Below are positions 45,237 to 60,796 of a stretch of DNA of 64,000 nt, piece by piece; within the stretch, counting starts at the first letter, position 1; each line of letters starts with the position of its first letter. The stretch is taken from the NCBI RefSeq assembly GCF_900119165.1, contig NZ_FPJG01000006.1, positions 6,510,001 to 6,574,000 of the forward strand, read 5' to 3'. This DNA is from Amycolatopsis australiensis. Its GTDB lineage: Bacteria; Actinomycetota; Actinomycetes; Mycobacteriales; Pseudonocardiaceae. Position numbers and translations under genes: made by a program. The notes beneath the pieces are model-generated. The model made no database searches, was not told the DNA's origin, and was given only the letters and a program-made list of their open reading frames with translations.

Positions 45237-45272
45237 GTCGGCTGTGTCCTCTCGTCCTACCTGATGCGCAGG

Positions 45273-46725: not shown

Positions 46726-46744
46726 CCGCACTCACGTCACAGAC
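46726..46744 (-). promoter_or_regulatory. 19-bp element copy C (read on minus: GTCTGTGACGTGAGTGCGG)
   Basis: One of four copies of a shared element. Its centre is 28 bases from a possible -10 hexamer GAGACT (46763-46768) of the plus-strand unit that starts at 46,774 or 46,804. Holds the TGTGA half-site. See the regulon finding. Confidence 0.6.
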
Positions 46745-46803
46745 TTTCGCGTCCCGGATGGCGAGACTCGGCCGTGAAGCACACGACGCCGAAGGGACAC
46801 ACG

Positions 46804-47178
46804 GTGATCACCCAACGAATCGACCCCGTGCCCGATCCGTGGTTCGGCCAGCGCGTGTGGGCGCTGACCGCGGGCCTGCGGCGGCGCGGCCTGGCCGGGA
46901 CCGGCACGATGCTGGTCGTGACGTGCGAGGCGCACGATGCCGACCGCGCGGTCGCGACTTCGGCCGCCGAGCGGACCGGCCTGCGCGTGACGCAGCTGGA
47001 CCCGGCCTCCGCAGAACTCGTCACCGCGCTCGAAACCCGGCCCACCGTCGTGCTGGCCTGCCGGGAAGGCAGCGCCCGGGTGGCCGCGACACGGGTGCCG
47101 TGCCGCATCTTCGGTGACCATCCGGGGATGGCGTGGTGGCGCCTGCTGGAACTGGCGCACGCGGACGGTGCCGCATGA
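46804..47178 (+). CDS. Unknown protein coupled to flavin reductase
   Basis: A 124-residue soluble protein; family not recognised. It reads RIDPVPDPWFGQRVWALTAG, GTMLVVTCEAHDADRAVATS, VTQLDPASAELVTALETRPT and ends MAWWRLLELAHADGAA. The strand-helix alternation suggests a small alpha/beta (Rossmann-like) fold. GTG 46804 has GAAGGGAC upstream; GTG 46774 is an alternative that would fit a leaderless transcript, because a -10-like GAGACT ends 5 bases before it. Its stop overlaps the flavin reductase start (ATGA), so the two are coupled. Confidence 0.7.
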   Translation: MITQRIDPVPDPWFGQRVWALTAGLRRRGLAGTGTMLVVTCEAHDADRAVATSAAERTGLRVTQLDPASAELVTALETRPTVVLACREGSARVAATRVPCRIFGDHPGMAWWRLLELAHADGAA

Positions 47179-47681
47179 CCTCGGTGCCGGACCTGCAGGC
47201 CGTCGAGCACCTCGGCGACCGGGAACTGCGCTCGGCGTTCGGGAGCTTCCCGACCGGCGTGACCGCGTTGTGCGCGCTCGGCGAGAACGGCCCGGACGGA
47301 ATGGTGGCCAGCGCGTTCACCGCCGCGTCACTGGCGCCTCCGCTGGTGACGGTGTGCGTGCAGCGGACGTCCGCGACATGGCCGCGGTTGCGCCGGCAGC
47401 CGCACCTCGGGGTGAGCATCCTCGCGGCCGGGCAGGAGGCGGCGTGCCGCTCGTTGTCGGCCAGGACCGGCGAGCGGTTCGCCGGCGTGGCCTGGGAAGC
47501 GGCCGGCTCCGGCGCGGTGTTCGTGACCGGCGCGGTGTCCTGGCTCGACTGCGTCGTGCACGACGAGCTGCCGGCCGGCGACCACGTCATCGTCGTCCTG
47601 CGGATCCGGCGGCTCCTGGCGACGCGGGACCGGCTGCCGCTGGTGTTCCACGCGAGCCGGTTCCGCGCCCTGGCCGGATAA
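47175..47681 (+). CDS. Flavin reductase (HpaC/two-component monooxygenase reductase)
   Basis: A 168-residue flavin reductase-like domain protein that supplies reduced FMN/FAD to a partner monooxygenase. LRSAFGSFPTGVTALCALGE is the conserved opening, GMVASAFTAASLAPPLVTVC gives the SxxFxxxSxxPP block, LGVSILAAGQEAACRSLSAR and LDCVVHDELPAGDHVIVVLR complete the flavin site. A luciferase-like monooxygenase lies at 54,390 in the same putative regulon and lacks its own reductase, so this is the probable partner. A strong bidirectional hairpin follows. Confidence 0.9.
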   Translation: MTSVPDLQAVEHLGDRELRSAFGSFPTGVTALCALGENGPDGMVASAFTAASLAPPLVTVCVQRTSATWPRLRRQPHLGVSILAAGQEAACRSLSARTGERFAGVAWEAAGSGAVFVTGAVSWLDCVVHDELPAGDHVIVVLRIRRLLATRDRLPLVFHASRFRALAG

Positions 47682-47684
47682 GCC

Positions 47685-47716
47685 CCGGGGTGCCGCGGGC
47701 GGCCGCGGCACCCCGG
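47685..47716. terminator. Bidirectional terminator hairpin, 14-bp stem
   Basis: Arms 47685-47698 (CCGGGGTGCCGCGG) and 47703-47716 pair perfectly around a 4-base loop. It sits between the convergent flavin reductase (ends 47681) and SMP-30 gene (ends 47726), exactly where both transcripts should stop. Confidence 0.8.
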
Positions 47717-47725
47717 ACATGGCGC

Positions 47726-48577
47726 TCAGGGCGAGCCGCCGGCCCGCACGGCCACCCGGCAGACCTCCACCCGGGCGAGCTTCCGGCCCGAGACGATGTC
47801 CTCGTGCGCGCCGGCATAGGTCAGGCCGAAGAAGGTGCGCCCGTCAGCCCCGCCCAGCGCACAGGCCACGGCCCGCCGGCCGGGCACCGGGATCACGTCG
47901 AGCACCTCTCCGCCCTCGCCGACCCGGACGAACTCGTCGGTCATGAACGACGAAACCCACACCGCGCCGGACGCGTCGAGGCAGATGCCGTCCGGCGTCC
48001 GCTCGCCGAGCGCCGCCCACACTCGGCGGCCGGACAGCGTGCCGTCGGCCGCGCGGGTGAAGGCGGTCAGCCGGTTGCCGAACGTCTCGGCGACGATGAG
48101 CGTGCCGCCGTCGGGCGTGATGACCGCGCCGTTCGGGAACTCCAGGCCGTCGGCGACGACCTCGAACCGGCCGCCCGGCCGGACCAGGAACAGTTCGGCG
48201 GGCTTGAAGTCGGCGCCGTTCACGATGTCGTACCCGACCGTGCCGACGTAGATGTTCCCGGCCCGGTCGGCCACGGTGTCGTTGAGGTCGTGGGGAACCG
48301 TCTCCGACAAGTCGGCGTACTCCGCGACGACGCCGTCCGCCGTCACCGACAGCAGCCGCCGGTCGGCCATGGAAACGACCACCACGGTGCCGTCCGGAAG
48401 CACGCTGATCCCCGACGGCCGCTGCGGGAAATCCGCGACCTTGGTGCGCTCGCCCGATTCCGCCAGCGCGTGCACGGCGTGCCCCCACTGGTCCGACAGC
48501 CACAGCTGGCCGTCGTGCCAGCGCGGCCCTTCGAGGAACACGAAGTCGTCGGAAAGGGTCTCCAGCCGGTATTCCAT
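47726..48577 (-). CDS. SMP-30/gluconolactonase-family lactonase
   Basis: A 283-residue six-bladed beta-propeller of the SMP-30/regucalcin/gluconolactonase family, metal-dependent lactone hydrolases. FLEGPRWHDGQLWLSD carries the metal-binding Glu near the N-terminus, HDLNDTVADRAGNIYVGTVG and LEFPNGAVITPDGGTLIVAE contain the central Asn ligands, and RTPDGICLDASGAVWVS the Asp. No signal peptide, so cytoplasmic. GAGGAGCGAT precedes ATG 48577. Last gene of the eight-gene operon that begins at 56,397. Opening a lactone formed by the monooxygenase would fit. Confidence 0.9.
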   Translation of the reverse strand: MEYRLETLSDDFVFLEGPRWHDGQLWLSDQWGHAVHALAESGERTKVADFPQRPSGISVLPDGTVVVVSMADRRLLSVTADGVVAEYADLSETVPHDLNDTVADRAGNIYVGTVGYDIVNGADFKPAELFLVRPGGRFEVVADGLEFPNGAVITPDGGTLIVAETFGNRLTAFTRAADGTLSGRRVWAALGERTPDGICLDASGAVWVSSFMTDEFVRVGEGGEVLDVIPVPGRRAVACALGGADGRTFFGLTYAGAHEDIVSGRKLARVEVCRVAVRAGGSP

Positions 48578-48585
48578 ATCGCTCC

Positions 48586-50202
48586 TCACCCGCGAATGCG
48601 CATGGCCTCGCCGGACCATTCCCGCTCGCGTAGTTCGTGCTTGCGTACCTTGCCCGTCGACGTCTTCGGCAGTTCGGCGACGATTTCGACCTCGCGCGGC
48701 GCCTTGTAGCGGGCGATCCGCTCCCGCACGTGCGCGAGAACGCCGGCCTCCGTGGGGTTTCGCCCCGGCCGCGGGACGACGAACGCCTTCGGCCGCTCGC
48801 CCCACCGGTCGTCCGGGACGCCGACCACGGCCACCTCGAGGACGTCGGGGTGCGCGGCGACGGCGTGCTCGACCTCGACGGTCGAGATGTTCTCGCCGCC
48901 GGAGATGATCACGTCCTTCGCCCGGTCGCGCAGCTCGACGTAGCCGTCCGGGTGCAGGACGCCCAGGTCGCCGGAGTGGAACCAGCCGCCCGCGAACGCG
49001 GCCGCGGTGGCTTCCGGGTCCCGGTGGTACCCGTGCATGACGGTGTTGCCGCGCATCACGATTTCGCCCATCGTCCGCCCGTCGCGGGGGACGTCGCGCA
49101 TGTCCCGGTCGACGACGCGGATGCCGTCCGACGGCAGCATCCCGACGCCCTGCCGGGCTCGCAGCGCCGCCCGCTCGCCGGCCTCCAGCCCTTCCCACGC
49201 CCGCTGGTGGACGTTCACCGCGTACGGGCCGTAGGTTTCGGTGAGCCCGTACACGTGGACGATCGAGAAGCCCATCCGCTCGGCCTCGGCGAGGGTCGTC
49301 GGGCTGGGCGGCGCACCCGCCGTCGTGACGACCAGCGGCCGGTCGAGCCGGTGCGCCCGCGGCGCGTTCAGGATCGTCGTCACCACGGTCGGCGCCCCGT
49401 TCAGGTGAGTGACGTGGTGCCGGTCGATCAGGTCCCAGACCCGGTCGCCCCGCACCTCGCGCAGGCAGATCTGCGTGCCGCCCGCCGCGGCCAGTGCCCA
49501 GGGCGTGCACCAGCCGTTGCAGTGGAACATCGGCAACGTCCACAGGTAGACGCTGTCCGCGTCGAAGGCGGAGTGGAAGATCTGCCCGAAGGAGTTCAGG
49601 TACGCGCCGCGATGGGTGTAGATCACGCCCTTGGGCCGGCCGGTCGTGCCGGAGGTGTAGTTGATCGCCAGGGGCGAGCGCTCGGACGTGACCGTCCACG
49701 CCAGTTCCCCGTCGTCGCGTGCCGCGCCGGCGAGCAAGTCCTCGAACGCGACCGCACCCGTGACTTCGACGCCGACGCCGGGCTGGGCCGGGTCGGCCGC
49801 GACGGCGATCGTGCGGACTGTCTCCAGCGTCCGGGCGACCGGCGCCACGCTGCCGGCGTACTCCGCGTCGAGGACCACCAGGGTGGCGCCCGAATGGTCG
49901 AGGATGTACCGGACCTCTTCAGGCGCGAGCCGCGTGTTGATCGCGACCAGCACGGCCCCGGCCAGCGGCACGGCGAACTGCGCGGCGAGCATTTCCGGCA
50001 CGTTCGGCATCAGATAGGCGACCCGGTCGCCGGGGCGTACGCCGGCCGCCCGCAGCATGCGGGCGCGCTGTTCGACCTTCGCGGCGAATTCCCGGTAGGT
50101 CCAAACGTCTTCGCCGTACACGACAGCCGGTTTGCCGGGGTGGACGTTCGCTGACCGGTGCAGGAACGAAAGCGGCGTCAACGGGCTGATCGAGGTTTCC
50201 AC
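48586..50202 (-). CDS. Acyl-CoA synthetase (AMP-binding, medium-chain type)
   Basis: A 538-residue ANL-superfamily acyl-CoA ligase. Adenylation motifs: INYTSGTTGRPKGVIYTHRG (A3), HVYGLTETYGPYAVN (A5), GGWFHSGDLGVLHPDGYVEL (A7) and RAKDVIISGGENISTVEVEH (A8), and the catalytic Lys in LPKTSTGKVRKHEL (A10). It activates a carboxylic acid to its CoA ester with ATP. This subgroup (LLINYTSGTTG, MFHCNGWCTPWA) acts on medium-chain or aryl acids. GTG 50202 has GAAGGGAATC upstream. In context its substrate would be the ring-opened hydroxyacid. Confidence 0.93.
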   Translation of the reverse strand: METSISPLTPLSFLHRSANVHPGKPAVVYGEDVWTYREFAAKVEQRARMLRAAGVRPGDRVAYLMPNVPEMLAAQFAVPLAGAVLVAINTRLAPEEVRYILDHSGATLVVLDAEYAGSVAPVARTLETVRTIAVAADPAQPGVGVEVTGAVAFEDLLAGAARDDGELAWTVTSERSPLAINYTSGTTGRPKGVIYTHRGAYLNSFGQIFHSAFDADSVYLWTLPMFHCNGWCTPWALAAAGGTQICLREVRGDRVWDLIDRHHVTHLNGAPTVVTTILNAPRAHRLDRPLVVTTAGAPPSPTTLAEAERMGFSIVHVYGLTETYGPYAVNVHQRAWEGLEAGERAALRARQGVGMLPSDGIRVVDRDMRDVPRDGRTMGEIVMRGNTVMHGYHRDPEATAAAFAGGWFHSGDLGVLHPDGYVELRDRAKDVIISGGENISTVEVEHAVAAHPDVLEVAVVGVPDDRWGERPKAFVVPRPGRNPTEAGVLAHVRERIARYKAPREVEIVAELPKTSTGKVRKHELREREWSGEAMRIRG

Positions 50203-50214
50203 GTCCGATTCCCT

Positions 50215-51192
50215 TCAGTTCCCGGCGATCCGCAAGACGACCTTGCCCACCGGCTGCCCCGCCACCCGCTCCTGTGCGGCGGCCACCCGATCCAGCGGAT
50301 AGGCGAGCACCGGCAACGCGGACAGGGCGCCGGCCGCCAGCGCCGCGGAGGTCCAGCGGACCGCGTCGGACAGCTGACCGGCCGACAGTCCGTACAGGAG
50401 GACGAAGGCGAGCGTGATGTTCGCCTGCATGAATTCGCCGACCGGCAAGGAAAGCTGCCCCGCCGCGGCGTAGGTGGCGATCGTGCCGCCGGGCCGGAGG
50501 ACGGCCATGTCGAGGGCCAGGTTCGCGCCGAAGGCGACCTCGACCACGCGGTCGACCGGACCGGCGAAGTCACGGATGCGCTCGGCGACGTCCCCGTCGG
50601 TGTAGCGGACGACCAGGTCGGCGCCCGCCCGTTCCGCGAGCGTGCGCTTGTCGTCGGAACTCACCGTCGCCACCACGCGGGCGCCGGCGTGCTTGGCCAG
50701 CTCGATCGCGTAGTGCCCGACCGCTCCGGCGCCGCCGGCGACGAGGACCGTCCGCCCTTTGACCGCGTCCGGGTCGCCACCGAGGCAGTGCGCGGCGGTG
50801 AGCGCGGGCACGCCCAGACAGGCGCCCAGGTCGTCGGACGCGTGGCCGGGCAACGGAACCACCCGCGCGGCGGGCACGATCGCGTACTCGGCCGCGGTGC
50901 CGTACCGGTTGCCGAACGCTGCCAGGTACAGCCACACCCGTTGCCCCGCCGTGAGCCCCGTGACGCCGCTGCCCACCGCGTCCACCACGCCGGCGCCGTC
51001 GTGGTGCGGGACCTGGAACCCGTCCGGCATCCGGCCGGTGAGCCCGGCGCGCGTCTTCCAGTCCGTGGGGTTGATCCCCGAGGTGACCATCCGGACCCGG
51101 ACCTCGCCCGGTCCCGGCTCCGGTCGCTCCAGCTTGACGACCTCGAGGACCTCGTCGGCGGGGCCGGGACGGCGGTAGACCGCCGCCTTCAT
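50215..51192 (-). CDS. NADPH:quinone oxidoreductase-type zinc-free MDR
   Basis: A 325-residue medium-chain dehydrogenase/reductase of the quinone oxidoreductase/crotonyl-CoA-like group: MKAAVYRRPGPADEVLEVVK, SGINPTDWKTRAG, VPHHDGAGVVDAVGSGVTGL, the Rossmann loop VLVAGGAGAVGHYAIELAKH and TVSSDDKRTLAERAGADLVV. Zinc ligands are absent. These enzymes reduce enones or enoyl compounds with NADPH. GGGGAAGCG precedes ATG 51192; 19 bases separate it from the epimerase gene upstream. Probably reduces a double bond in the substrate ring or side chain. Confidence 0.9.
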   Translation of the reverse strand: MKAAVYRRPGPADEVLEVVKLERPEPGPGEVRVRMVTSGINPTDWKTRAGLTGRMPDGFQVPHHDGAGVVDAVGSGVTGLTAGQRVWLYLAAFGNRYGTAAEYAIVPAARVVPLPGHASDDLGACLGVPALTAAHCLGGDPDAVKGRTVLVAGGAGAVGHYAIELAKHAGARVVATVSSDDKRTLAERAGADLVVRYTDGDVAERIRDFAGPVDRVVEVAFGANLALDMAVLRPGGTIATYAAAGQLSLPVGEFMQANITLAFVLLYGLSAGQLSDAVRWTSAALAAGALSALPVLAYPLDRVAAAQERVAGQPVGKVVLRIAGN

Positions 51193-51211
51193 CGCTTCCC
51201 CTGCCGCGAGG

Positions 51212-52174
51212 TCACGACCGGCGCGACTGCACCAGTTCGTGGTAGTGCCGGATCGCCCGGTCCAGGTCGAAGCGTGGCCGCCATCCCAACTCCTCCTCCA
51301 ATCGAGCGCCGTCCAGCGCCATGTAGTACGGATCCGGCATGGACATCGGGTCCGTGCCGGGTCCCACCTCGAGTGCCGCGCCGGGGATGACCCGCCGGAT
51401 CGCGGCCGCGAACTCGCGCATCGACACCGGGCGCCCGGCGGCCACGTTGTACGCCGGGTGGCGAAGCGGTTCCGGGGCCAGCGCGACGGTCGTGATGGCG
51501 TCCGCGACGTCCAGGACGTAGATGATGTCGTCCCGCTCGTCCCCACCGTGGTCCACCGTGAACGGCCGGCCCGAAGCCGGCAGCTCGATCATCGAGCTGT
51601 AGGTGTTGATCGGGCCGGCGTGCCGCTGCAGCCTGCCCGGCCCGAAGATCGTGGCGAAGCGGAGGCTGACGCAATCGAGGCCGTGGTTGCGGCCGTACCA
51701 CGCCATTACGTTCTCCGCGGCCAGCTTCGAGATGCCGTACATGCCGGTCGGGTGCAGCTCGCTGTCCTCCGCGACCGGCGCGTAGCCGGGAAAACCGCGC
51801 TCCCCGGTGGCCGGTGCGTACACCGCCTTCGAGCTCGTGTAGACCACTCGCCGCACGCCCGCGGCCACCGCCGCCGCGCAGACCGACGCCGTGCCACCGA
51901 CGTTCACCGAAATCGCCCGGTGCGGATCGCGCTCGCAGTCGACGAACGCCGCGAGGTGGATGATGCAGTCCGGCCTGAGCCGCGTCACCGTTTCGGCCAG
52001 CTGCCCGGGATCGCCGACGTCGCCGACCACGAACTCGACGTCGGCCACGACGTCCGCGATCAGCGTGGTGTCGGCCCGGTTTTCGAAGACCGCGGTCTCG
52101 TGGCCCCGGCCGACGAGGTCCCGGACCACCCACGAACCGTTGACACCCGACCCACCGGTCACCAGTACACGCAT
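51212..52174 (-). CDS. NAD-dependent epimerase/dehydratase-family (extended SDR)
   Basis: A 320-residue extended SDR. VLVTGGSGVNGSWVVRDLVG holds the TGGxGxxG cofactor loop, VVGDVGDPGQLAETV the Asp, IIHLAAFVDCERD the NAD-contact block, catalytic Thr-Ser-Ser in VVYTSSKAVYAP and Tyr/Lys in GMYGISKLAAENV. LRFATIFGPGR and DIIYVLDVADAI are typical of sugar epimerases and of related 3-beta-hydroxysteroid dehydrogenase-like enzymes. In this catabolic setting a hydroxy-acid or alicyclic alcohol dehydrogenase role is more likely than sugar epimerisation. GTAGGAGCC precedes ATG 52174. Confidence 0.88.
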   Translation of the reverse strand: MRVLVTGGSGVNGSWVVRDLVGRGHETAVFENRADTTLIADVVADVEFVVGDVGDPGQLAETVTRLRPDCIIHLAAFVDCERDPHRAISVNVGGTASVCAAAVAAGVRRVVYTSSKAVYAPATGERGFPGYAPVAEDSELHPTGMYGISKLAAENVMAWYGRNHGLDCVSLRFATIFGPGRLQRHAGPINTYSSMIELPASGRPFTVDHGGDERDDIIYVLDVADAITTVALAPEPLRHPAYNVAAGRPVSMREFAAAIRRVIPGAALEVGPGTDPMSMPDPYYMALDGARLEEELGWRPRFDLDRAIRHYHELVQSRRS

Positions 52175-52182
52175 CCGGGCTC

Positions 52183-53007
52183 CTACTGTCGTGTCTCGTC
52201 CGCCGCGAGGCGGCGGAACGACGGGACCATGGGCGCGTAGGCCGACATCCCGCCGTCGACGACCAGCACGTGCCCGTTGACGAAAGCCGACTCCGGCGAG
52301 GCCAGGAAGAGAGCGGCCAGCGCGACGTCGTCCGGCCTGCCGAGCCGGGGCGCGGACACGTGGTCGAGCATCACCTCGGTCTGCCGCGCGGAATACATCT
52401 TTTCGGTGGCGGGCGACACGATGTGCCCGGGCGCGATGACGTTGCAGCGGACGCCTTGCTTGCCGTACTCGGTGGCCAGCGTCTTGGACAGGCCGATCAC
52501 CCCCGCCTTCGCGGTCGCGTAAGCCGGGCGGCCTTCCAGGGAAAGCCACGCGGCGAGCGACGTCGCGTTGGTGATGCTGCCTCCACCGGCGCGGATCATG
52601 TGCGGCAGCGCGTGCTTCGAGGTGAGCACACAGCCCATCAGGTCCACGCCGAGCTGCCTCGACCACACCGACGGGTCGGCATCGGCGACGAAGACGTCCC
52701 GGCCGACCAGGCTTCGTTCCGACGCGTAGTTCTGCAGCACGTCGAGACCGCCGAAGCTGGCCACGGCGAACTCGACCAGGTCGGCGACCTGCGCCTCATC
52801 CGAGACGTCCGCCGCGAACGGCTCGCCCACCCCGCCGTCCTCGCGAATGCGCTCCGCTGTCTGTGCTGCCTTCGTCTCGTCGATGTCGGCGACGACCACC
52901 TTCGCGCCTTCGCGCGCGAAAAGTTCGGCTGTCACCGCCCCGATTCCCGAACCGGCACCCGTCACCAGCGCCGAGCGCCCGGTCAGCCGGCCCGTAGCCG
53001 TTCCCAT
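52183..53007 (-). CDS. SDR-family oxidoreductase with NYAS in place of NNAG
   Basis: A 274-residue classical SDR. Cofactor loop TGAGSGIGAVT, Asp in VVADIDETK for NAD, catalytic Ser in NATSLAAWLS and Tyr/Lys in YATAKAGVIGL. The usual NNAG structural motif reads NYAS (LDVLQNYASERS), a rare change at a position that shapes the active-site Asn network. The C-terminal tail (APMVPSFRRLAADETRQ) is about 15 residues longer than typical. GGAGGGAGTG precedes ATG 53007. Member of the eight-gene operon. Confidence 0.88.
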   Translation of the reverse strand: MGTATGRLTGRSALVTGAGSGIGAVTAELFAREGAKVVVADIDETKAAQTAERIREDGGVGEPFAADVSDEAQVADLVEFAVASFGGLDVLQNYASERSLVGRDVFVADADPSVWSRQLGVDLMGCVLTSKHALPHMIRAGGGSITNATSLAAWLSLEGRPAYATAKAGVIGLSKTLATEYGKQGVRCNVIAPGHIVSPATEKMYSARQTEVMLDHVSAPRLGRPDDVALAALFLASPESAFVNGHVLVVDGGMSAYAPMVPSFRRLAADETRQ

Positions 53008-53009
53008 GC

Positions 53010-54353
53010 TCACTCCCTCCGATCCGACGTTCCGGCGGACCGGACCCGGCCCACGCACGTGATCACGACCACCAGCGTCACCGCCCCGCCGGCCATCGCG
53101 TACCAGGCCGGGGAAACCTTGTTCCCCGACAGTTCGATCAGCAGCGTCGCGACGAACGGCGCGGTGCCGGCGAAGAGCGCGGACCCGAAGCCGTAGGCGA
53201 TCCCGAACCCGGAAACGCGCACCCGGGTGGGAAACAGCTCGGCGAACAGCACCGGGATGGCGCCACCGAACGCGGCGACGGGGATCCACAGGATCAGCTG
53301 CCCGAGCAGCGCCGCACCGAACCCCTTCAGCCCGATGACGAGCAGGGCGGGGACCGGCAGGAGCACCGTGAGGACGCACGCGAAGACGAGGATCGCCTTC
53401 CGGCTGTAGCGGTCGGACAGGTACCCGAACGCGAGCACGAGGAAGATCCCGACCGTGGTGGCGATGACCACGGTACCGAGCGCCTGCGCCGCGGGCAGGC
53501 CGACGACGCTGCGGATGTAGGTCAGCACGAAGGCCTGGACCGTCGACGACGCGATGTTGAAGCCGACGCAGATCCCGATCACGGTCAGGAAGCCCGGCCA
53601 GTGGTCCTTGAACAGGGCGCGCAGCGGGCTCTTCGCGCGGGCGCCGTCCGCCTTGAGCTCTTCGAACTCCGGCGACTCCGCGATGCGGTACCGCAGGTAG
53701 AGACCGATGGCCAGCAACGGGAAGCCCAGCAGGAACGGCACCCGCCAGCCCCAGGCCTCCAGCGTGGCGGGCGGCATCGACACCGTCAGGAGCAGGACCA
53801 CGACGGTGCCGAGCACGCTGCCCAATGTGGACGAGAAGAACGCGAACGCTCCGTAACGGCCGCGGCGGTCGCGGGGCGCGTGCTCGACGAGGAAACTGGC
53901 CGAGGTCCCGAACTCGCCGCCCACGGAAAGGCCCTGCAGCAGCCGGGCGACGCACAGCAGCAGCGGTGCGGTGATCCCCGCGGCCGGGTAGGTCGGCATG
54001 ACGCCGATGAGCACCGTCGTCAGTCCCATGATCAGCACCGCGATCGCGAGCGGGACCTTGCGTCCCCGCCGGTCCGCGAGCCGCCCGAAAACGATGGCGC
54101 CGACCGGCCGCATGACGAAACCGACGCCGAAGAGGGCGAACGTCGAGAGCACGGCGGCGATCGGGTCGCCGGGCGGGAAGAAGAGCTTCGAGATGACCGG
54201 GGTCAAGGACGCGAAGATCGCGAAGTCGTAGAACTCGAGCGCGTTGCCCGTCCCGGCGGCGACGATGGACCGCCGCGCGAGACGTCTGCCGTGCGGGCTT
54301 CCCGGTGCCGCCGGCAGCGGGCTTTCCGCGTCCAGGGAGGATGGTTGAGACAT
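53010..54353 (-). CDS. MFS transporter, MHS family (metabolite:H+ symporter)
   Basis: A 447-residue, 12-helix transporter of the metabolite:proton symporter family (ShiA, KgtP, ProP-like). NALEFYDFAIFASLTPVISK in the first helix and RPVGAIVFGRLADRRGRKVP in loop 2-3 are diagnostic, and GLSVGGEFGTSASFLVEHAP is the family's conserved GGE block. Substrates are organic acids or osmolytes. GGAGGGACAACG precedes ATG 54353. It is third in the operon, after the hydrolase-fold gene and monooxygenase, and likely imports the pathway substrate. Confidence 0.92.
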   Translation of the reverse strand: MSQPSSLDAESPLPAAPGSPHGRRLARRSIVAAGTGNALEFYDFAIFASLTPVISKLFFPPGDPIAAVLSTFALFGVGFVMRPVGAIVFGRLADRRGRKVPLAIAVLIMGLTTVLIGVMPTYPAAGITAPLLLCVARLLQGLSVGGEFGTSASFLVEHAPRDRRGRYGAFAFFSSTLGSVLGTVVVLLLTVSMPPATLEAWGWRVPFLLGFPLLAIGLYLRYRIAESPEFEELKADGARAKSPLRALFKDHWPGFLTVIGICVGFNIASSTVQAFVLTYIRSVVGLPAAQALGTVVIATTVGIFLVLAFGYLSDRYSRKAILVFACVLTVLLPVPALLVIGLKGFGAALLGQLILWIPVAAFGGAIPVLFAELFPTRVRVSGFGIAYGFGSALFAGTAPFVATLLIELSGNKVSPAWYAMAGGAVTLVVVITCVGRVRSAGTSDRRE

Positions 54354-54389
54354 CGTTGTCCCTCCGATCATCTCGGTGTGCTGGGGGAA

Positions 54390-55568
54390 TCAGACCGCGA
54401 CGCGGTCCGTCACGCGGTCGAGCGCCGGCACGACGTCCTCGGCGAACCGCCGGATCCCGCGAGCCGTCTCGTCGTGGTCCAGGTGGCCCGCCTGGCCCAT
54501 CAGGAGCAGGTGCCCGAAGCCGCCCACGTGCTCGTGGAACCGTTCGATCTGCGCCGCGACGCTGCTCGGGCTGCCCGCGAACAGGAGGCCGCGGTCGATG
54601 AGATCACGCACCGACAGGGAGGTCAGATCGGGGATCGGCGACGAGGCCGGCGCGCCGGAGCCGGAAGCCGCGCCACCACGAAGGCCGGCGGCGCGCACCG
54701 GGTACGGCATGTACCCGGGCGGGTAGGTGAACTCCTGCGTCACCTTGTTGCTGTGCAGGTACCACAGCAGTTTCCGCGCGCCTTCGAAACCCTCCTCGTC
54801 GGTTTTCCCGGTGTAGACCAGCGCGGCGTACCCGAACCGTTCGTCGCCCGGCTGTGGCTTGCCGGTTTCGGCGCACCGGTCGCGGTAGGCCTGGAAGACC
54901 TTCCGCGTCCCCTCGAACCCGGACAGGAACGTCCCGAGCCGGTAGCCGTGGTCGGCGATCCGCGGCACGCTGGCCGGGTTCACGGCGGTGACCCACACCG
55001 GCGGGCTGGGCTGCTGGTACGGCCGCGGCCAGATGTTCACCTGGCGGTGGTGGAAGAACTCGCCCTCCCAGTTGAACGGCCCGTCGTGCGTGGTCCAGGC
55101 CCGGGTGATCAGCTCGATCGCCTCCCACATGCGCTCGGTCATCCGGACCGGCTTGGCGTTGGTCGCGGCGACCTCGTACTGCACGCCGCGGACGAACCCG
55201 ACGTCGAGGCGGCCGTGGCTGAGCAGGTCGACCAGGGCCATCTCTTCGGCGATGCGGACCGGGTCGGGCCGGTTCGCGACCGGGTTCCCGAGGATGAGGA
55301 TCCGCGCCCGGCTGGTGACCCGCGCCAGCACGCCGGCGACCACGGGCGCCGCGGAGTTCATGCACGTGGCGGTCGAGTGGTGTTCGTTGACCATCACGTT
55401 CAACCCGCATTCGTCCGCGATCTCCCATTCGCGGATGTAGCGGTCCCACAGCCCGGCTGCGCGGCCGGGATCGATGACGCCGTTCGGCAGGGTGACGCGG
55501 ACCGAGGCGTACGTCTCCGGGTCCGGCAGGTCGGGGTACGCACACTCGCTGAAGTGCCAGAACTGCAT
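54390..55568 (-). CDS. Luciferase-like (LLM) flavin-dependent monooxygenase
   Basis: A 392-residue bacterial-luciferase-type TIM barrel, an oxygenase that uses reduced flavin from a separate reductase. MQFWHFSECAYPDLPD opens the barrel, VMVNEHHSTATCMNSAAPVV is the conserved first active-site strand, LVDLLSHGRLDVGFVRG the next, then WPRPYQQPSPPVWVTAVNPA and LFAGSPSSVAAQIERFHEHV at the C-terminus. Related enzymes do Baeyer-Villiger or C-H oxygenation of ketones and terpenoids. It has no reductase beside it; the flavin reductase at 47,175 shares the same promoter element. Second gene of the operon starting at 56,397. Confidence 0.9.
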   Translation of the reverse strand: MQFWHFSECAYPDLPDPETYASVRVTLPNGVIDPGRAAGLWDRYIREWEIADECGLNVMVNEHHSTATCMNSAAPVVAGVLARVTSRARILILGNPVANRPDPVRIAEEMALVDLLSHGRLDVGFVRGVQYEVAATNAKPVRMTERMWEAIELITRAWTTHDGPFNWEGEFFHHRQVNIWPRPYQQPSPPVWVTAVNPASVPRIADHGYRLGTFLSGFEGTRKVFQAYRDRCAETGKPQPGDERFGYAALVYTGKTDEEGFEGARKLLWYLHSNKVTQEFTYPPGYMPYPVRAAGLRGGAASGSGAPASSPIPDLTSLSVRDLIDRGLLFAGSPSSVAAQIERFHEHVGGFGHLLLMGQAGHLDHDETARGIRRFAEDVVPALDRVTDRVAV

Positions 55569-55599
55569 TTCCGAACGCTTCCTTCCTGTGTCCTTCGCC

Positions 55600-56397
55600 T
55601 CAGGCGGCGAGATCGGCGATCAGCTTCGCGACCGCGTCCGGGCACTCGACCTGGGCGCGGTGCCCGGCCCGGTCGATCTGCGCGAACCGCGCCCGCGGAA
55701 TCCGCTCGGCGATGCCGCAGCCGTAGCCGGGGCTGACGATGCCGTCCCGGCCGCCCCAGATGACCGACGTCGGCACCGCGATGCCCTCGATCGCGCGGGC
55801 CAGCCCGGGGTTGTGCAGGTAGGGCTCCCACCCGTAGGTCGCGAGCGCTTCTTCGTTGCGCGCCACTTCGAAGACGTCTTCCTCCGGTGCCTTCCCGAGG
55901 TCGCCGAGCCGGTACCGCGCGTCGGCGTAGAGGTAGCGCTCGAGCTCCGCCCGGGGGGTCGCGAAGACGTCGGCGATCTCCCGCTCGAGCGGACCGCCGA
56001 ATTTGACGCCCACCGAGCCGACGAGCGCCAGCCGGGAGATCCGCGCGCCGCCGCGCACCGCCATCTCCAGGGCCACCCAGCCGCCGAACTGGAGGCCGAC
56101 GAGCGTGACGTCGGTGTGCCCGGACCGGTCGAGCCAGCCGAGGTACAGCGCGGCGAGGTCGCCGACCGATGTGCACCAGTCCGGCCGGGGCGACCGGCCG
56201 AAGCCGGGGTGGCTGGGCGCCACGACGGCGAAATCCTCGGCCAGGGCCTCGATGAACGCGGCGTCCTCCGCGGCCCGCTCGGCTCCGGGCAGAACCAGGG
56301 CGAGCCGGTGGCCGTCGCCGGCGAAGCGGGTGTCGAGGTGGACACCGGGGCCGAACTCGACGCCGCTGACGGCGTCCACGAGGTCGAGCGTCTGCAC
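55600..56397 (-). CDS. Alpha/beta-hydrolase-fold protein lacking a nucleophile
   Basis: A 265-residue alpha/beta-fold protein. The elbow reads VTLVGLQFGGWVAL, with Gln at the position where Ser, Asp or Cys must act, so ordinary hydrolysis is not expected. The other triad members are present: Asp in WGGRDGIVSP and His in DRAGHRAQVE. SHPGFGRSPRPDW is the usual oxyanion-loop region. Such proteins may have become lyases, isomerases or binding proteins. GTG 56397 has TTGGAGG upstream. First gene of the eight-gene operon; the 19-bp element at 56,500 lies upstream. Confidence 0.82.
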   Translation of the reverse strand: MQTLDLVDAVSGVEFGPGVHLDTRFAGDGHRLALVLPGAERAAEDAAFIEALAEDFAVVAPSHPGFGRSPRPDWCTSVGDLAALYLGWLDRSGHTDVTLVGLQFGGWVALEMAVRGGARISRLALVGSVGVKFGGPLEREIADVFATPRAELERYLYADARYRLGDLGKAPEEDVFEVARNEEALATYGWEPYLHNPGLARAIEGIAVPTSVIWGGRDGIVSPGYGCGIAERIPRARFAQIDRAGHRAQVECPDAVAKLIADLAA

Positions 56398-56499
56398 AAT
56401 GCCTCCAACAGGTCGCGGCGGGTGTTCCTCCGGTGGCCGGCCCCGCTGGCCGGCTCCGTCGCGTCCGGTACGAGGAGTCTGCGCGCTCGCGGTGCCGAA

Positions 56500-56518
56500 G
56501 ACTGTGACTTGGGTCCGG
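56500..56518 (+). promoter_or_regulatory. 19-bp element copy B (GACTGTGACTTGGGTCCGG)
   Basis: Placed upstream of the minus-strand operon that starts at 56,397. Relative to that operon its orientation matches the other copies. The possible -10 hexamer CAGACT (minus strand, 56476-56481) begins 28 bases from its centre. See the regulon finding. Confidence 0.65.
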
Positions 56519-56522
56519 CGGC

Positions 56523-57740
56523 TCATCGGGCGAGTCCGCGCAGCTCGGCGCGGGCGAGCGCGGTCTTGTGGACCTCGTCGGGGCCGTCGGCGAACCGCAG
56601 CGCGCGGGCGAGCGCGGAGCCGTAGGCCAGCGGGAAGTCCTGGGACAGGCCGGCGGCACCGTGCACCTGGATCGCCTTGTCGACGATCCACCCGACGGTG
56701 CGCGGGGTGGCGATCTTGATGGCCTGGATCTCCGTGTGCGCGGCCTTGTTGCCCCGCGTGTCCATGAGCCACGCCGCCTTGAGCGTGAGCAGGCGCAGCT
56801 GCTCGATCCTGACGCGGGATTCGGCGATCCAGTCGCGCACGACCCCCTGTTCGGCCAGGGGTTTGCCGAACGCGACCCGCTCGCGGGCCCGTGCGCACAG
56901 CAGTTCGAGCGCGCGTTCGGCCACCCCGATCGCGCGCATGCAGTGGTGGATGCGGCCCGGCCCGAGCCGGGCCTGGGCGATGGCGAAGCCGTCCCCTTCG
57001 CCGCCGATCAGGTTGGCGGTCGGCACCCGGACGTCGTCGAAACGCAGTTCGGCGTGGCCGCCGTGCTCGTGGTCGTCGTAGCCGAAGACCCGCATGGCGC
57101 GGACCACGTGGAGGCCCGGGGTGTCCCGCGGCACCAGGATCATGGACTGCCGGTGGTGCCGGTCCGCGTCCGGGTCGGTCTCGCCCATGACGACGATGAC
57201 CGCGGCGTTCGGGTTCATCGCCCCGGTGATCCACCACTTGCGGCCGTTGAGCACGTAGTGGTCCCCGTCGCGCTCGATGCGCGTGGCGATGTTGGTGGCG
57301 TCGGAGGACGCGACACCGGGTTCGGTCATCGCGAACGCCGAGCGGATCTCCCCGGCCAGCAGCGGCCGGAGCCACCGCTCCCGCTGCGCCCGGGTGCCGA
57401 ACTGCGCCAGCAGTTCCATGTTGCCGGTGTCGGGTGCCGCGCAGTTCAGCGCGGCCGGCGCCAGCTGCGGGCTGCGGCCGGTGAGCTCCGCCAGCGGCGC
57501 GTACTGCTGGTTGGTCAGGCCGGCGCCGTGCTCCCCCGGCAGGAACAGGTTCCACAGCCCGCGCTCGCGTGCCGCCGCGCGCAGCTCGGCCAGGACGGGC
57601 ACCGAGTCCCACGCCCACCGATCGCGCAGCTCGGCCAGCTGCCGTTCGAACACCGGCTCCGCCGGGTGGACGTGGTCGCGCAGGAATTCGGCCAGCCGGG
57701 CACGCAGGTCCTCGGTCCGGGCGTCGTGAGCGAAGTCCAT
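56523..57740 (-). CDS. Acyl-CoA dehydrogenase, ACAD10/11-like
   Basis: A 405-residue FAD acyl-CoA dehydrogenase. AELTGRSPQLAPAALNCAAP, then IRSAFAMTEPGVASSDATNI (FAD-binding and substrate loop), RKWWITGAMNPNAAVIVVMG, VFGYDDHEHGGHAELRFDDV, GRIHHCMRAIGVAERALELL, and the C-terminal IQVHGAAGLSQDFPLAYGSA. The DTGN...GxHHCMR pattern and the adjacent phosphotransferase gene place it with ACAD10/ACAD11 and the bacterial LvaC group rather than with beta-oxidation dehydrogenases. Expected role: elimination of phosphate from a 4-phosphoacyl-CoA and conversion to the 3-hydroxyacyl-CoA. Shares TGATG with the phosphotransferase gene. Confidence 0.88.
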   Translation of the reverse strand: MDFAHDARTEDLRARLAEFLRDHVHPAEPVFERQLAELRDRWAWDSVPVLAELRAAARERGLWNLFLPGEHGAGLTNQQYAPLAELTGRSPQLAPAALNCAAPDTGNMELLAQFGTRAQRERWLRPLLAGEIRSAFAMTEPGVASSDATNIATRIERDGDHYVLNGRKWWITGAMNPNAAVIVVMGETDPDADRHHRQSMILVPRDTPGLHVVRAMRVFGYDDHEHGGHAELRFDDVRVPTANLIGGEGDGFAIAQARLGPGRIHHCMRAIGVAERALELLCARARERVAFGKPLAEQGVVRDWIAESRVRIEQLRLLTLKAAWLMDTRGNKAAHTEIQAIKIATPRTVGWIVDKAIQVHGAAGLSQDFPLAYGSALARALRFADGPDEVHKTALARAELRGLAR

Positions 57741-58768
57741 CAGCGATCCTCCTTGACGGCGGTCAGCCCGATCTCCAGCAACGGCTCGGCCAGCGCGCCC
57801 ATCCGGCCGGCCCCGGCGCCCGCGGCCTGCCCGTGCCGGTGGCGGTGCCGGACGCCGTCGGCGATCGCCGCGAGCTTGTACGCGGCGAGACCGAGGTGGA
57901 ACCCGAAGTGCCGGGGGTCGCGGCCGCCGCGTGCGCGATACCGGCTGAGCACCTCGTCCTCGGTGAGGTGTCCCGGCGCCGAAGCGGCGTCGGAGACGAC
58001 ATCGCCGCCGGTGACCCCGCTCAGCCGCTGGTAGGCGATCAGCAGGGCGAGGTCGGCCAGCGGATCGCCGAGGGTCGCCATCTCCCAGTCGATGACCGCC
58101 GCCGGGCGGCCGGCGGCGTCGATCAGCACGTTGTCGAGGCGGTAGTCCCCGTGCACGATGCCCGGCGCGGACTGCTCGGGCACGTTCGACGCCAAGAGGA
58201 CGCGCAGCTCGTCCGCCGCCGGCAGGGCACGGTCGCGCGTCGCTTCCAGCCGGTCGCTCCAGCGCCGCACCTGCCGGTGCAGGAAACCGTCCGCGCGGCC
58301 GAAGTCCGCCAGTCCCACCTCGGCCGGATCGACGGCGTGCAACGCGACGAGGGTGTCGACGAGGTGCTCCGAGATCGCGCGGACCCGCTCCGGACCGAGC
58401 CGGGCCAGCTCCGCCGCGCCGCGGAACGGCGTCCCGTCGACCTTTTCCATGAGGTAGAAGGGCGCGCCGAGCACGGAGTCGTCCGTGCACAGCGCGTAGG
58501 TCGCCGGAACCGGCACGCCGGTGCCCGCGAGGGCCGACATCACCCGGTGTTCGCGGCGCACGTCGTGCGCGGCGGCCGGCACGTGCCCGACCGGTGGCCG
58601 GCGCAGCACCCAGCGGCGTTCGCCGTCGCCGATCTCGTAGGTCAGGTTCGACCGGCCGCCGGCGATCAGGCGAGCCGACAACGTCCGCCCCGCCGCCTCG
58701 GGCAGCACCGCCGGCAGCCAGTCCGCCAGCCGGCGCAGGTCCAGGCCCGGCGGGTCCGCGGGGCCCAT
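57740..58768 (-). CDS. Aminoglycoside-phosphotransferase-fold kinase (LvaA/ACAD10-11 kinase-like)
   Basis: A 342-residue APH-fold kinase. SARLIAGGRSNLTYEIGDGE is the nucleotide loop, WVLRRPPVGHVPAAAHDVRR contains the Lys/Arg strand, GIVHGDYRLDNVLIDAAGRP the Brenner catalytic motif (His-Gly-Asp...Asn) and AVIDWEMATLGDPLADLALL the DxE metal motif. In human ACAD10/11 this domain is fused to the dehydrogenase, and in Pseudomonas levulinate catabolism LvaA phosphorylates the 4-hydroxyl of 4-hydroxyvaleryl-CoA before LvaC acts. The gene is directly coupled to the ACAD gene here, so the same job is likely, not antibiotic resistance. Confidence 0.88.
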   Translation of the reverse strand: MGPADPPGLDLRRLADWLPAVLPEAAGRTLSARLIAGGRSNLTYEIGDGERRWVLRRPPVGHVPAAAHDVRREHRVMSALAGTGVPVPATYALCTDDSVLGAPFYLMEKVDGTPFRGAAELARLGPERVRAISEHLVDTLVALHAVDPAEVGLADFGRADGFLHRQVRRWSDRLEATRDRALPAADELRVLLASNVPEQSAPGIVHGDYRLDNVLIDAAGRPAAVIDWEMATLGDPLADLALLIAYQRLSGVTGGDVVSDAASAPGHLTEDEVLSRYRARGGRDPRHFGFHLGLAAYKLAAIADGVRHRHRHGQAAGAGAGRMGALAEPLLEIGLTAVKEDR

Positions 58769-59556
58769 CAGGCCTCCCCCGCGGGGCCGGCCGCGGCCTC
58801 GATGTGCCGTTGCAGCTTGTTCATCCCGTCGAGCCACCGATCGGTGTCCGTGGCGCGCTGCCGGTAGAACCCCGCCACCCGCGGATGCGGCAAGATCAGG
58901 AAACGGTCGTCGTGCAGTGCCTGCCAGGTCGCCTCCGCCACTTCTTCGGGCGCGACGGCGTCGGCGGCCAGGACGTCGCGCAGCGGCCCGGCCGAGGCGA
59001 GCATGCCGGTCCGCACGCCCTGCGGGCAGACCGCCTGGACGACGATCCCGCGATGCCGGTAGGTGGCCGACAGCCACTCGGCGAACGCGACCGCGCCGTG
59101 CTTGGTCACCGAGTACGGCGCCGTGCCGAGCGCGGTCAGCAGTCCCGCGGCGGAGGCGGTGACCACGAACCGGCCGCCGCCGCGAGCCAGCCACCCCGGC
59201 AGCAGCGCGCGGGCGGCCCGCACGTGCGCCATCGTGTTGACCTCCCAGCTCGCCGCCCACTCCGCGTCGGTCGCGTCGAGGCCGCCGCCGCGCACGACAC
59301 CGGCGTTCGCGAACCAGGCGTCGATCTGCCCGAGGTGCTCCCGCGCGGCCGACACGAGCGCGCGAACGCCGGCGGCGGAGGCGGCGTCGCCCGGGACGGC
59401 ACGGGCGCCGATCTCTTCGGCCACGGCCGCCGTCGCGGCCGGGTCCAGGTCGTTCACCACGACACGGGCTCCCCCGGCCGCGAGGCGCGCCGCGAGCGCC
59501 TTGCCGATCCCGCCCGCCGCGCCGGTGACGACGACACCCCGGCCCGCGACCGTCAT
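58768..59556 (-). CDS. SDR-family oxidoreductase
   Basis: A 262-residue classical SDR. Cofactor loop TGAAGGIGKAL, Asp in VVVNDLDPA for NAD, catalytic Ser in VTASAAGLLTAL and Tyr/Lys in YSVTKHGAVAF. NNAG reads ANAG (WFANAGVV). A 30-residue C-terminal helix (FYRQRATDTDRWLDGMNKLQ) follows the Rossmann fold, as in the SDRs that occur beside ACAD11-type dehydrogenases in actinomycetes. Overlaps the kinase start by one base and the next SDR by four bases. Plausible as a hydroxyacyl-CoA dehydrogenase. Confidence 0.9.
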   Translation of the reverse strand: MTVAGRGVVVTGAAGGIGKALAARLAAGGARVVVNDLDPAATAAVAEEIGARAVPGDAASAAGVRALVSAAREHLGQIDAWFANAGVVRGGGLDATDAEWAASWEVNTMAHVRAARALLPGWLARGGGRFVVTASAAGLLTALGTAPYSVTKHGAVAFAEWLSATYRHRGIVVQAVCPQGVRTGMLASAGPLRDVLAADAVAPEEVAEATWQALHDDRFLILPHPRVAGFYRQRATDTDRWLDGMNKLQRHIEAAAGPAGEA

Positions 59557-60311
59557 CGGGCCGCCCCGCCCAGGGTGACCCCGCCGTCGACCACCAGCAG
59601 TTCGCCGGTGATCAGAGCGGCGTCCCCGGAAAGCAGGAACGCGACCGCGCTGCCGATGTCCTCGGGCTCGCCCAGGCGCTTGAGCGGGTACGCCGCGGCC
59701 ACCTGCTCCTCACGGCCCTCGTACAGCGCCGCGGAGAACCGCGTCTTCACCACCGCGGGGGCGACCGCGTTGACCCGGATCCGCGGGCCGAGCTCCACCG
59801 CGAGCAGCTTGGTGATCGCGACGAGCATGGCCTTGCTGGCGCCGTAGAACCCGACACCCGGTTCGGGCTTGATCGCCGAGTGCGACGCGACGTTGACGAC
59901 CGCGCCGCCGTGCTCGCGCAGCCAGGCGTGGTGGGCCCGCTGCACCCAGGACAGCGCCGCGAGGCAGTTGACTTCGACGATCTTGCGCGCCAGCACGAGG
60001 TCCAGCTCGACCATCGGGCCGTACCACGGGTTGATGCCCGCGTTGTTGACCAGCATGTCGAGGCCGCCGAACCGTTCGACGGCCAGCCGGACCGTCTCGT
60101 CCTGGTGCCCGGTGTCGTCGGCCTTCCCGGCGACACCGAGCGCGACCTCGGGGCCGCCGAGCCGCGCCACGGCCTCGTCGAGTTCGGCCTTCCGGCGGGC
60201 GGTGATCACCACGCGCGCACCGGCCGCGACCAGCCGCTCGGCGATCGCCAGCCCGATCCCGCGGCTGGCACCGGTCACGACGGCGGTCCGGCCGTCGAAG
60301 CTGTTGCTCAT
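59553..60311 (-). CDS. SDR-family oxidoreductase
   Basis: A 252-residue classical SDR of the FabG/glucose-dehydrogenase-like type: TGASRGIGLAI, Arg-Arg in ITARRKAEL (NADP preference), NNAG intact, catalytic Ser in NVASHSAIKP and Tyr/Lys in FYGASKAML. ALITGELLVVDGGVTL at the C-terminus. It may reduce a 4-oxoacyl-CoA to the 4-hydroxyacyl-CoA as LvaD does in levulinate catabolism. ATG 60311 overlaps the small protein stop (ATGA). Confidence 0.9.
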   Translation of the reverse strand: MSNSFDGRTAVVTGASRGIGLAIAERLVAAGARVVITARRKAELDEAVARLGGPEVALGVAGKADDTGHQDETVRLAVERFGGLDMLVNNAGINPWYGPMVELDLVLARKIVEVNCLAALSWVQRAHHAWLREHGGAVVNVASHSAIKPEPGVGFYGASKAMLVAITKLLAVELGPRIRVNAVAPAVVKTRFSAALYEGREEQVAAAYPLKRLGEPEDIGSAVAFLLSGDAALITGELLVVDGGVTLGGAAR

Positions 60312-60643
60312 TCCGTGTCTGCCTTTCGTCCGGCTCGGCCCCAGTCGACGTGCGCGCGGACCCGGCGGCCATCGGCGCTGAGCCAGCCGTGTGCCTCGGC
60401 GTGCCCGAGCATCGCCGCGAACCGGTCGTGCCAGCCGGCGTCGCGGTCGCCGGCCGCCGCCCGCAACCAGGCGACGTCGAGCCAGGCGTGCGCACCGGCC
60501 ACCTCGCCCGCGCCGGCGGCGCGCAGGGTCCGCGACAGCGTTTCCCAGCCGGGCGCGCTCGCCTCGGCCCGGACGGACAAGGAGCCGAAGTCGTCGGCGG
60601 CGCGCAGCCGCGGCGTCCCGGAGTCGGCGATGTGGACCAGCAT
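60308..60643 (-). CDS. Small protein, candidate LvaB-like partner of the kinase
   Basis: A 111-residue soluble protein. It reads LVHIADSGTPRLRAADDFGS, then PGWETLSRTLRAAGAGEVAG, AHAWLDVAWLRAAAGDRDAG and HAEAHGWLSADGRRVRAHVD. No catalytic motif. In levulinate catabolism LvaB is a small protein of similar size encoded beside LvaA and needed for kinase activity; position and size match here, but I cannot confirm homology by eye. ATG 60643 lies 7 bases after a -10-like CAGACT and has no ribosome binding site, so it is probably translated from a leaderless transcript. First gene of the operon. Confidence 0.7.
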   Translation of the reverse strand: MLVHIADSGTPRLRAADDFGSLSVRAEASAPGWETLSRTLRAAGAGEVAGAHAWLDVAWLRAAAGDRDAGWHDRFAAMLGHAEAHGWLSADGRRVRAHVDWGRAGRKADTE

Positions 60644-60675
60644 GGTGCGAAGTCTGCGGCCCGGACGGCGGCCAA

Positions 60676-60694
60676 GACTGTGACCTGGATCCGG
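60676..60694 (+). promoter_or_regulatory. 19-bp element copy A1 (GACTGTGACCTGGATCCGG)
   Basis: Upstream of the minus-strand operon starting at 60,643. Its centre (60685) is 29 bases from the -10-like CAGACT (minus, 60651-60656) and 42 bases from the start codon, which would be the transcription start of a leaderless mRNA. That is the classic distance for a CRP-type activator site. Confidence 0.68.
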
Positions 60695-60713
60695 GCATCT
60701 CGCCGCCGAGGCG

Positions 60714-60732
60714 CCGGACCTGGGTCACAGAC
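60714..60732 (-). promoter_or_regulatory. 19-bp element copy A2 (read on minus: GTCTGTGACCCAGGTCCGG)
   Basis: Upstream of the plus-strand operon at 60,797 and inverted relative to copy A1, so both divergent operons have the same arrangement. Its centre (60723) is 29 bases from a weak -10-like GACGAT (60752-60757). The inner GACCTGGGTC is itself palindromic. Confidence 0.62.
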
Positions 60733-60796
60733 GGGCTCGCCGCCGGTTGGCGACGATGAGCCGGATCGCCGGCCCCACCGCCCAGGAGGAGCAGAC

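Follow-up and report, generated by a model that had tools for sequence, protein, structure and literature searches.

A conserved asymmetric element at the operon heads of an Amycolatopsis catabolic island, and a CRP-like protein as its probable reader

The DNA considered here is a window of 64,000 nt from Amycolatopsis australiensis (assembly GCF_900119165.1, contig NZ_FPJG01000006.1, positions 6,510,001-6,574,000), which carries a catabolic island. Four operons of this island are preceded by copies of a 19-bp element, and one of these operons encodes a CRP-like protein. The coordinates and letters of the four copies, as given by an earlier sequence-only reading of the window, were all correct. 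Read in the orientation of transcription, their consensus is CCGGAYCYRGGTCACAGWC, and the copy at 46726 deviates most from it. The sites are listed below with their scores under the site model described further on, their -10-like hexamers and the operons that they precede, followed by the proposed reader.

Site P1, 60676..60694, minus strand: CCGGATCCAGGTCACAGTC (60694 to 60676), 30.7 bits; -10-like hexamer CAGACT at 60656-60651, minus; precedes the leftward operon small protein / SDR / SDR / APH / acyl-CoA dehydrogenase
Site P2, 56500..56518, minus strand: CCGGACCCAAGTCACAGTC (56518 to 56500), 34.4 bits; -10-like hexamer CAGACT at 56481-56476, minus; precedes the operon hydrolase / LLM monooxygenase / transporter / FadD
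Site P3, 60714..60732, plus strand: CCGGACCTGGGTCACAGAC, 26.4 bits; -10-like hexamer GACGAT at 60752-60757, plus; precedes the operon alpha/beta hydrolase / CRP-like protein / esterase
Site P4, 46726..46744, plus strand: CCGCACTCACGTCACAGAC, the weakest copy, 25.9 bits; -10-like hexamer GAGACT at 46763-46768, plus; precedes a small open reading frame (ORF) of unclear standing and then the flavin reductase gene
61730..62431, plus strand: CRP-like regulator (cNMP_binding + HTH_Crp_2; GSVREVVAR as recognition helix), proposed to read the sites

The four copies had been described as lying at four divergent promoters. This holds for the copies at 60676 and 60714, which stand back to back, but not for the other two: the copy at 56500 lies at most 25 bases from the stop codon of the acyl-CoA dehydrogenase gene (56523) and heads a tandem operon, and only an apparent decayed regulator remnant lies opposite the copy at 46726. 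This remnant consists of broken pieces in several frames (44586-46670, minus strand), which by eye resemble an AfsR/LuxR-type NB-ARC regulator with a TPR-like tail and mark the left edge of the island; a Pfam search at 1e-3 gave no match for the three pieces scanned.

Rarity, conservation and position of the element

Within the window, a pattern test allowing up to 3 mismatches was not strong, as it gave 6 matches against 2.31 expected and this number was reached by 5 of 100 shuffles. In the genome (9,312,140 bases in 10 contigs), the pattern CCGSAYYYRRGTCACAGWC had 3 exact matches and 1 match with one mismatch, all in the island, and the next best matches were 11 sites elsewhere with 2 mismatches. 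At up to 3 mismatches there were 186 sites for the pattern versus 78 for its reversal. A site model was then derived from sequence only, from 38 sites of which 4 were the window's own (L066:448 was omitted and two sites with a weak distal half were added). Scanned over the genome, it scored the four copies at 34.4, 30.7, 26.4 and 25.9 bits, whereas the site in fifth place had 14.7 bits (E 0.39). The decisive observation is that, among the best 150 of 14,853 first-look candidates that were scored, the four copies are the sole strong matches in the 9.3-Mb genome. The proposal that the element is restricted to the island operons is thereby borne out.

A protein search with the CRP-like protein returned 84 matches, the first 43 of which were 58-92% identical and, where named, mostly from actinobacteria. 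We scanned the loci of close orthologs, namely 13 genomic loci (L061-L073; 67-86% identity) from Prauserella, Thermocatellispora, Amycolatopsis, Pseudonocardia, Kribbella and Subtercola, and one plasmid locus from Rhodococcus opacus PD630 (L140; 80% identity). It should be noted that L068 is nearly a copy of L067 and was dropped before the gene-mapping and ORF-recurrence counts given below, and that L064 and L072 share one contig. All 14 loci contained 2-6 matches at up to 3 mismatches, two of which (L063:19496 and L140:23206) resemble chance matches in coding DNA, and the reversed pattern had no match in the same 14 loci. The word GTCACAG, which forms the promoter side of the element, occurred 50 times in 703,512 strand-bases of the close loci and the window, versus once in 210,744 strand-bases of the control loci L002-L030.

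The position of the element relative to genes was determined by mapping the island genes with tblastn in 17 loci and stretches, and by searching the 300 bp upstream of each for GTCACAG on the coding strand. The word preceded 29 of the 33 operon-leading genes versus 2 of the 104 other island genes (Fisher 4e-23). Gene by gene, the counts were 5 of 6 for the flavin reductase, 8 of 8 for hydrolase A, 3 of 5 for the small protein, and 13 of 14 for hydrolase B, which heads the CRP operon. Both exceptions among the other genes concern the LLM gene, before which the site is located immediately in L061 and L199. The order and orientation of the operons vary by genus, and the site keeps to the operon heads. 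Back-to-back pairs such as 60676/60714 were also present in L061, L062, L063, L065, L140, G331 and G211. An extension of the motif to CRP relatives of 33-45% identity (L074-L085) was dropped, as the sites there were scattered and mostly incomplete; L078 and L085 each had one site in which the far half was good and the -10 hexamer fitted, on which no claim is built. CRP relatives of 36-45% identity likewise lie near a hydrolase A - LLM pair in L074-L079 and L083, and the linkage of regulator and enzymes therefore looks older than the regulon described here.

The distance to the -10-like hexamer is also kept. In all four window sites the hexamer follows GTCACAG by 20-21 nt, so that the centre of the pseudo-palindrome TGTGAC-N4-GTCCGG lies about 29 nt from its first base, near -41.5, and the distance of 28-29 bases in the sequence-only reading was right. 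The class II promoters of Escherichia coli CRP have a site centred at -41.5. As judged from the predicted -10 hexamers, the elements thus appear to occupy the position of a class II activator. This spacing was tested on those GTCACA words whose far half agrees with CGGAY at 4 or 5 of its 5 positions; there were 39 of them, or 37 after redundant ones were removed. Of these 37, 34 carry A[GC]N[AC]T at offset 21-22, as do 3 of the 50 other GTCACA words (Fisher p 3e-17), and for at least two of these three it is evident that they are sites whose far half is weak (L062:8658 and L071:5485). The element is present at the orthologous operons of other genera with its -10 distance retained, so that the sequence-only reading withstood those of its own refuting conditions that could be applied here. 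At P1, an ATG at 60643 lies just 7 nt downstream of the -10-like hexamer, and the transcript may therefore be leaderless.

The same spacing bears on whether the protein activates or represses. CRP-family proteins can repress from positions that overlap the -35 region, and this region is covered by the site, so that the protein might block RNA polymerase until a ligand releases it. Such repression seems unlikely to us: no TTGACA-like -35 sequence could be seen by eye at the due place, the -10 hexamers are weak (CAGACT, GACGAT), and a -10 distance fixed to 1 nt is a need of activation and not of repression. As a separate observation, promoters with an AGACT-type hexamer often carry ACCGGAYGCGA near the presumed transcription start (around 56455-56475 in the window, and in L062, L069, L071 and L140). 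CCGG was found at offset 7-8 past the -10 hexamer in 12 of 27 such promoters, which points to a possible CCGGA box.

The CRP-like protein and its association with the element

The protein encoded by 61730-62431 combines an N-terminal cNMP_binding domain (PF00027, 46.6 bits) with a C-terminal Crp-type helix-turn-helix (PF13545, 49 bits), both above the cut-off, and thus belongs to the CRP/FNR family. Its residues R191, E192 and R196 align to the REx3R of E. coli CRP and are invariant in 23 aligned sequences (the window protein and 22 relatives), which confirms the Arg-Glu-x-x-x-Arg recognition helix that had been read from the sequence. Such a helix is what would be expected of a protein reading TGTGAC. 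In E. coli CRP, cyclic AMP (cAMP) is contacted by Glu72, Arg82 and Ser83. Of these, Ser83 is kept, Arg82 is replaced by Ser, and Glu72 is replaced by Leu in the alignment and Val in the window protein. Because the cAMP-contacting Glu72 and Arg82 are lost, the ligand is probably a compound other than cAMP. Two CRP-like stretches were seen in tandem in Pseudonocardia thermophila (L072, 9296-10687), and a protein of this species, P0001 (384 aa), contains PF01047 (MarR) together with CRP domains.

Among 80 genomes of the genus, the protein was found at E<=1e-60 solely in the window's own genome and in none of the 79 congeners. Sites at E<=0.01 were present in 5 of the 80: the own genome had the four strong sites, and four others had one weak site each (20.0-22.3 bits, without the -10 part). 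None of the 79 congeners had a site above 22.3 bits. At the level of the order, 4 of 397 genomes contained a close ortholog (E<1e-100) and 2 a distant relative. Sites at E<=0.001 were found in 4 of 4 genomes with a close ortholog versus 4 of 393 others, or in 3 of 3 versus 4 of 393 when the own genome was set aside. In the 17-19 kb around the sites of G356, G427 and G279, no CRP-like or island genes were found except generic SDR and FadD matches of 30-34% identity, and among these three only G427 has a -10 hexamer at the right spacing; the 3-kb locus of G216 gave no island-gene matches. A separate search of 11 genomes or records at E<=0.1 revealed 3-6 sites each in G211, G331, G260, G463-G467 and the plasmid, although some of the weaker ones lie outside islands and may be due to chance. 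The motif model and genome scan suggested in the sequence-only reading thus link the occurrence of the element in a genome to that of the CRP-like gene.

These distributions also speak to the housekeeping Crp of actinobacteria, a GlxR-type protein that would read the sites in its cAMP-bound form and place the island under catabolite control. Three other CRP-family matches of 28-30% identity are indeed present in this genome, separate from the island protein, and the near half TGTGA is a classical CRP half-site. However, CRP-family matches occur in 60 of 60 genomes (the own genome and 35 congeners included), yet the 79 congeners lack any site above the score just mentioned. GlxR sites resemble TGTGA-N6-TCACA, according to PMC5449483. 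This full palindrome occurs at 5 places in the genome but nowhere in the island, nor in any of 19 island sequences. Together with the changed contact residues, the lack of a palindromic operator sets the window protein apart from a cAMP-dependent CRP, that is, from a CRP/GlxR ortholog. In view of the genome distribution and the palindromes missing from the island, we rejected the housekeeping Crp as the reader, and its involvement appears most improbable.

Asymmetry of the element and the proposed circuit

For a closer view of the element, 48 sites were listed by hand from the pattern scan, the spacing test and the locus comparison. The coding-looking L063:19496 and L140:23206, the weaker L066:440, L066:8985, L070:8915 and L200:4891, and the L068 copies were omitted. 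In 46 of the 48, the promoter side reads GTCACAG; 31 have CGGA[CT] distally, and none has TGTGA as its far half. The invariance of GTCACA in this set stems partly from the selection. Likewise, no GTCACA word in the 19 island sequences had a far half within 1 mismatch of TGTGAC. The site is consistently asymmetric, with TGTGAC beside the promoter and CGGAY distal to it.

Two subclasses of promoter can be distinguished. T or C stands at position 18 in 22 of the 27 sites with an AGACT-type hexamer (C as the fifth base), and A in 18 of the 21 sites with an ANNAT-type hexamer (Fisher 6e-6 for the difference); as the subclasses follow orthologous promoters, the 48 sites are not independent events. 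T18 with AGACT is mostly found at enzyme operons, and A18 with ANNAT mostly at the operons of the regulator and the flavin reductase. This conserved asymmetry poses the question of how one CRP-type dimer reads two unlike half-sites. It is conceivable, though we regard it as rather doubtful, that a family of CRP-fold activators has a permanently two-faced operator, in which the two subunits, or one subunit and a partner such as the alpha subunit of RNA polymerase or a second protein, read different DNA, and in which the two subclasses set different outputs in response to a non-cAMP ligand.

Asymmetric operators are common for AraC-type regulators and for direct-repeat binders. Another regulator of the island might therefore read the element, with the CRP-like gene being a target that travels along, and the R. 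opacus PD630 island does contain an AraC gene. This gene is, however, not among the ORFs that were found in at least 4 other loci (45% identity over half of the ORF), and it was rejected as a common reader because it is not conserved; the CRP-like ORF, by contrast, was recovered in 14 of 16 other sequences. In addition, the near half is the expected target of the RExxxR helix of a CRP. In P. oroxyli (L070, the same as G260), only 3 of 18 tested genes were found in a 20.7-kb locus, namely the hydrolase, CRP-like and esterase genes with the site upstream. The 15 other tested window genes were not found in this locus and the genome gave no LLM ortholog at E<=1e-140, yet the site still heads the CRP operon. 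A different reader within the island is thus very unlikely.

Several points nevertheless weigh against assigning the element to the CRP-like protein. One of them is its far half, which is unlike a CRP half-site. The loci were retrieved via the CRP-like gene, so that its presence there is by construction, and the sites of the spacing test were chosen for GTCACA plus most of CGGAY. In G356, which lacks the protein, one site reaches 29.2 bits (E 6e-6) and so outscores two of the window copies, although no fitting -10 hexamer goes with it. Moreover, the co-occurrence control is only partly independent of the site model: L070, one of the model loci, comes from G260 (100% identity), and G211 and G331 share 95% and 91% DNA identity over 3.7 kb with the model loci L063 and L065. 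Of the two genomes with a distant relative, G381 had no site at E<=0.1 and G173 a single weak one (E 0.098). The large genome searches scored part of the first-look candidates, under stricter filters. Lastly, an island without the CRP-like gene was not found among the 397 genomes (searched with the LLM protein at E<=1e-140), which leaves a small probability for a different regulator within the island.

All in all, we consider it highly likely that the four elements would serve as operators of the CRP/FNR-family protein 61730-62431, which would activate the island operons from a class II position. Comparison across loci and genomes shows a site that is conserved, leads operons, has a fixed distance to predicted -10 hexamers and co-occurs with the CRP-like gene. 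In the circuit that we propose, the protein would bind a ligand other than cAMP, probably one of the substrates or intermediates of the island pathway, and its dimer would then settle on the site, with one subunit on the promoter-proximal TGTGAC half and the other on the distal CGGAY half. Centred near -41.5, the dimer would recruit RNA polymerase in the class II manner and switch on the island operons. As P3 precedes the regulator's own operon, this would include positive autoregulation. The idea of a local CRP-like master activator that senses a pathway compound is supported in this way, and the loss of the cAMP contacts strengthens the view that this compound differs from cAMP.

The protein resembles E. 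coli CRP at class II promoters in its CRP fold as judged by sequence, the RExxxR helix, the TGTGA half-site and the position relative to the -10 hexamer. It differs in the replacement of Glu72 and Arg82 (by Val and Ser), in the CGGAY far half and in a regulon limited to one island. With GlxR and the actinobacterial Crp it shares the family and the occurrence in actinobacteria; GlxR itself is a global, cAMP-binding regulator, and palindromes of its kind lie outside the island. CprK, HbaR and similar proteins are local CRP/FNR-family sensors that are encoded beside the pathway they switch on and respond to a pathway compound instead of cAMP. They belong to other hosts and have other recognition sequences, and the likeness drawn here is one of arrangement. 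The pair of regulator and regulon is new, while its kind is already known; in titles and the beginnings of abstracts we found no description of this regulator or island. The regulator, operator, -10 hexamer and target operons together make a testable single-regulator circuit.

Island genes and the predicted pathway

The genes of the island were identified as follows.

47175..47681, plus: flavin reductase
47726..48577, minus: SMP-30/gluconolactonase family protein
48586..50202, minus: FadD-type acyl-CoA synthetase
50215..51150, minus: zinc-type alcohol dehydrogenase / quinone reductase family (MDR), start uncertain
51212..52174, minus: NAD-dependent epimerase/dehydratase family
52183..53007, minus: SDR oxidoreductase
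53010..54371, minus: MFS transporter, nearest the metabolite:H+ symporter subfamily but below the cut-off of that model
54390..55568, minus: luciferase-like (LLM) flavin-dependent monooxygenase
55600..56397, minus: alpha/beta hydrolase (hydrolase A), first gene of the P2 operon, predicted GTG start
56523..57740, minus: acyl-CoA dehydrogenase, putative LvaC-like role
57740..58768, minus: APH-family phosphotransferase, putative LvaA-like role
58768..59556, minus: SDR oxidoreductase, named from an 80% identical R. opacus PD630 gene annotated as SDR
59553..60311, minus: SDR oxidoreductase, named from a 79% identical R. opacus PD630 gene annotated as SDR
60308..60643, minus: small protein of 111 aa that leads the P1 operon, without a Pfam match at 1e-3
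60797..61705, plus: alpha/beta hydrolase (hydrolase B), leading the regulator operon, with its end as in the ORF and 60797-61600 as the part scanned
62471..63421, plus: alpha/beta hydrolase (Abhydrolase_3)

Beyond the window, the genes after 63421 encode a CaiB-type CoA-transferase, an enoyl-CoA hydratase and an SDR. The nearest solved structures to hydrolase A by sequence are, distantly, meta-cleavage-product hydrolases, and the 111-aa small protein matches the N-terminal part of the flavin reductase gene of L140.

The regulon would appear to encode an oxidative acyl-CoA pathway, with the LLM monooxygenase and flavin reductase, three hydrolases, the SMP-30 family protein as a putative lactonase, FadD, the APH kinase, the acyl-CoA dehydrogenase, the SDRs, the MFS transporter and, past the window's end, the CoA-transferase, enoyl-CoA hydratase and SDR as its parts. 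According to PMC12440821, LvaA and LvaC of the lva operon handle 4-hydroxy acids via a phosphorylated acyl-CoA, and an APH-type kinase is paired with an acyl-CoA dehydrogenase in LvaA/LvaC as well as in ACAD10/11, as in the adjacent genes at 56523-58768. Unlike in lva, the pair lies here within a larger island with an LLM monooxygenase, and the likeness concerns the pairing of genes rather than a comparison of their sequences. By this analogy, our guess is that the substrate could be a cyclic ketone, a lactone or a 4-hydroxy acid, where a ketone or lactone might enter as the 4-hydroxy acid.

The island is common to several actinobacterial genera in rearranged form and is plasmid-borne in one, and with the site model one can look for further islands and for the inducing compound, whose identity would reveal the pathway. 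On the R. opacus PD630 plasmid (L140, 1930-4293), one of the sites (4275, minus) precedes two genes, a RibB/RibA-type riboflavin gene and that of a flavin reductase, which suggests that flavin supply is part of the regulon.

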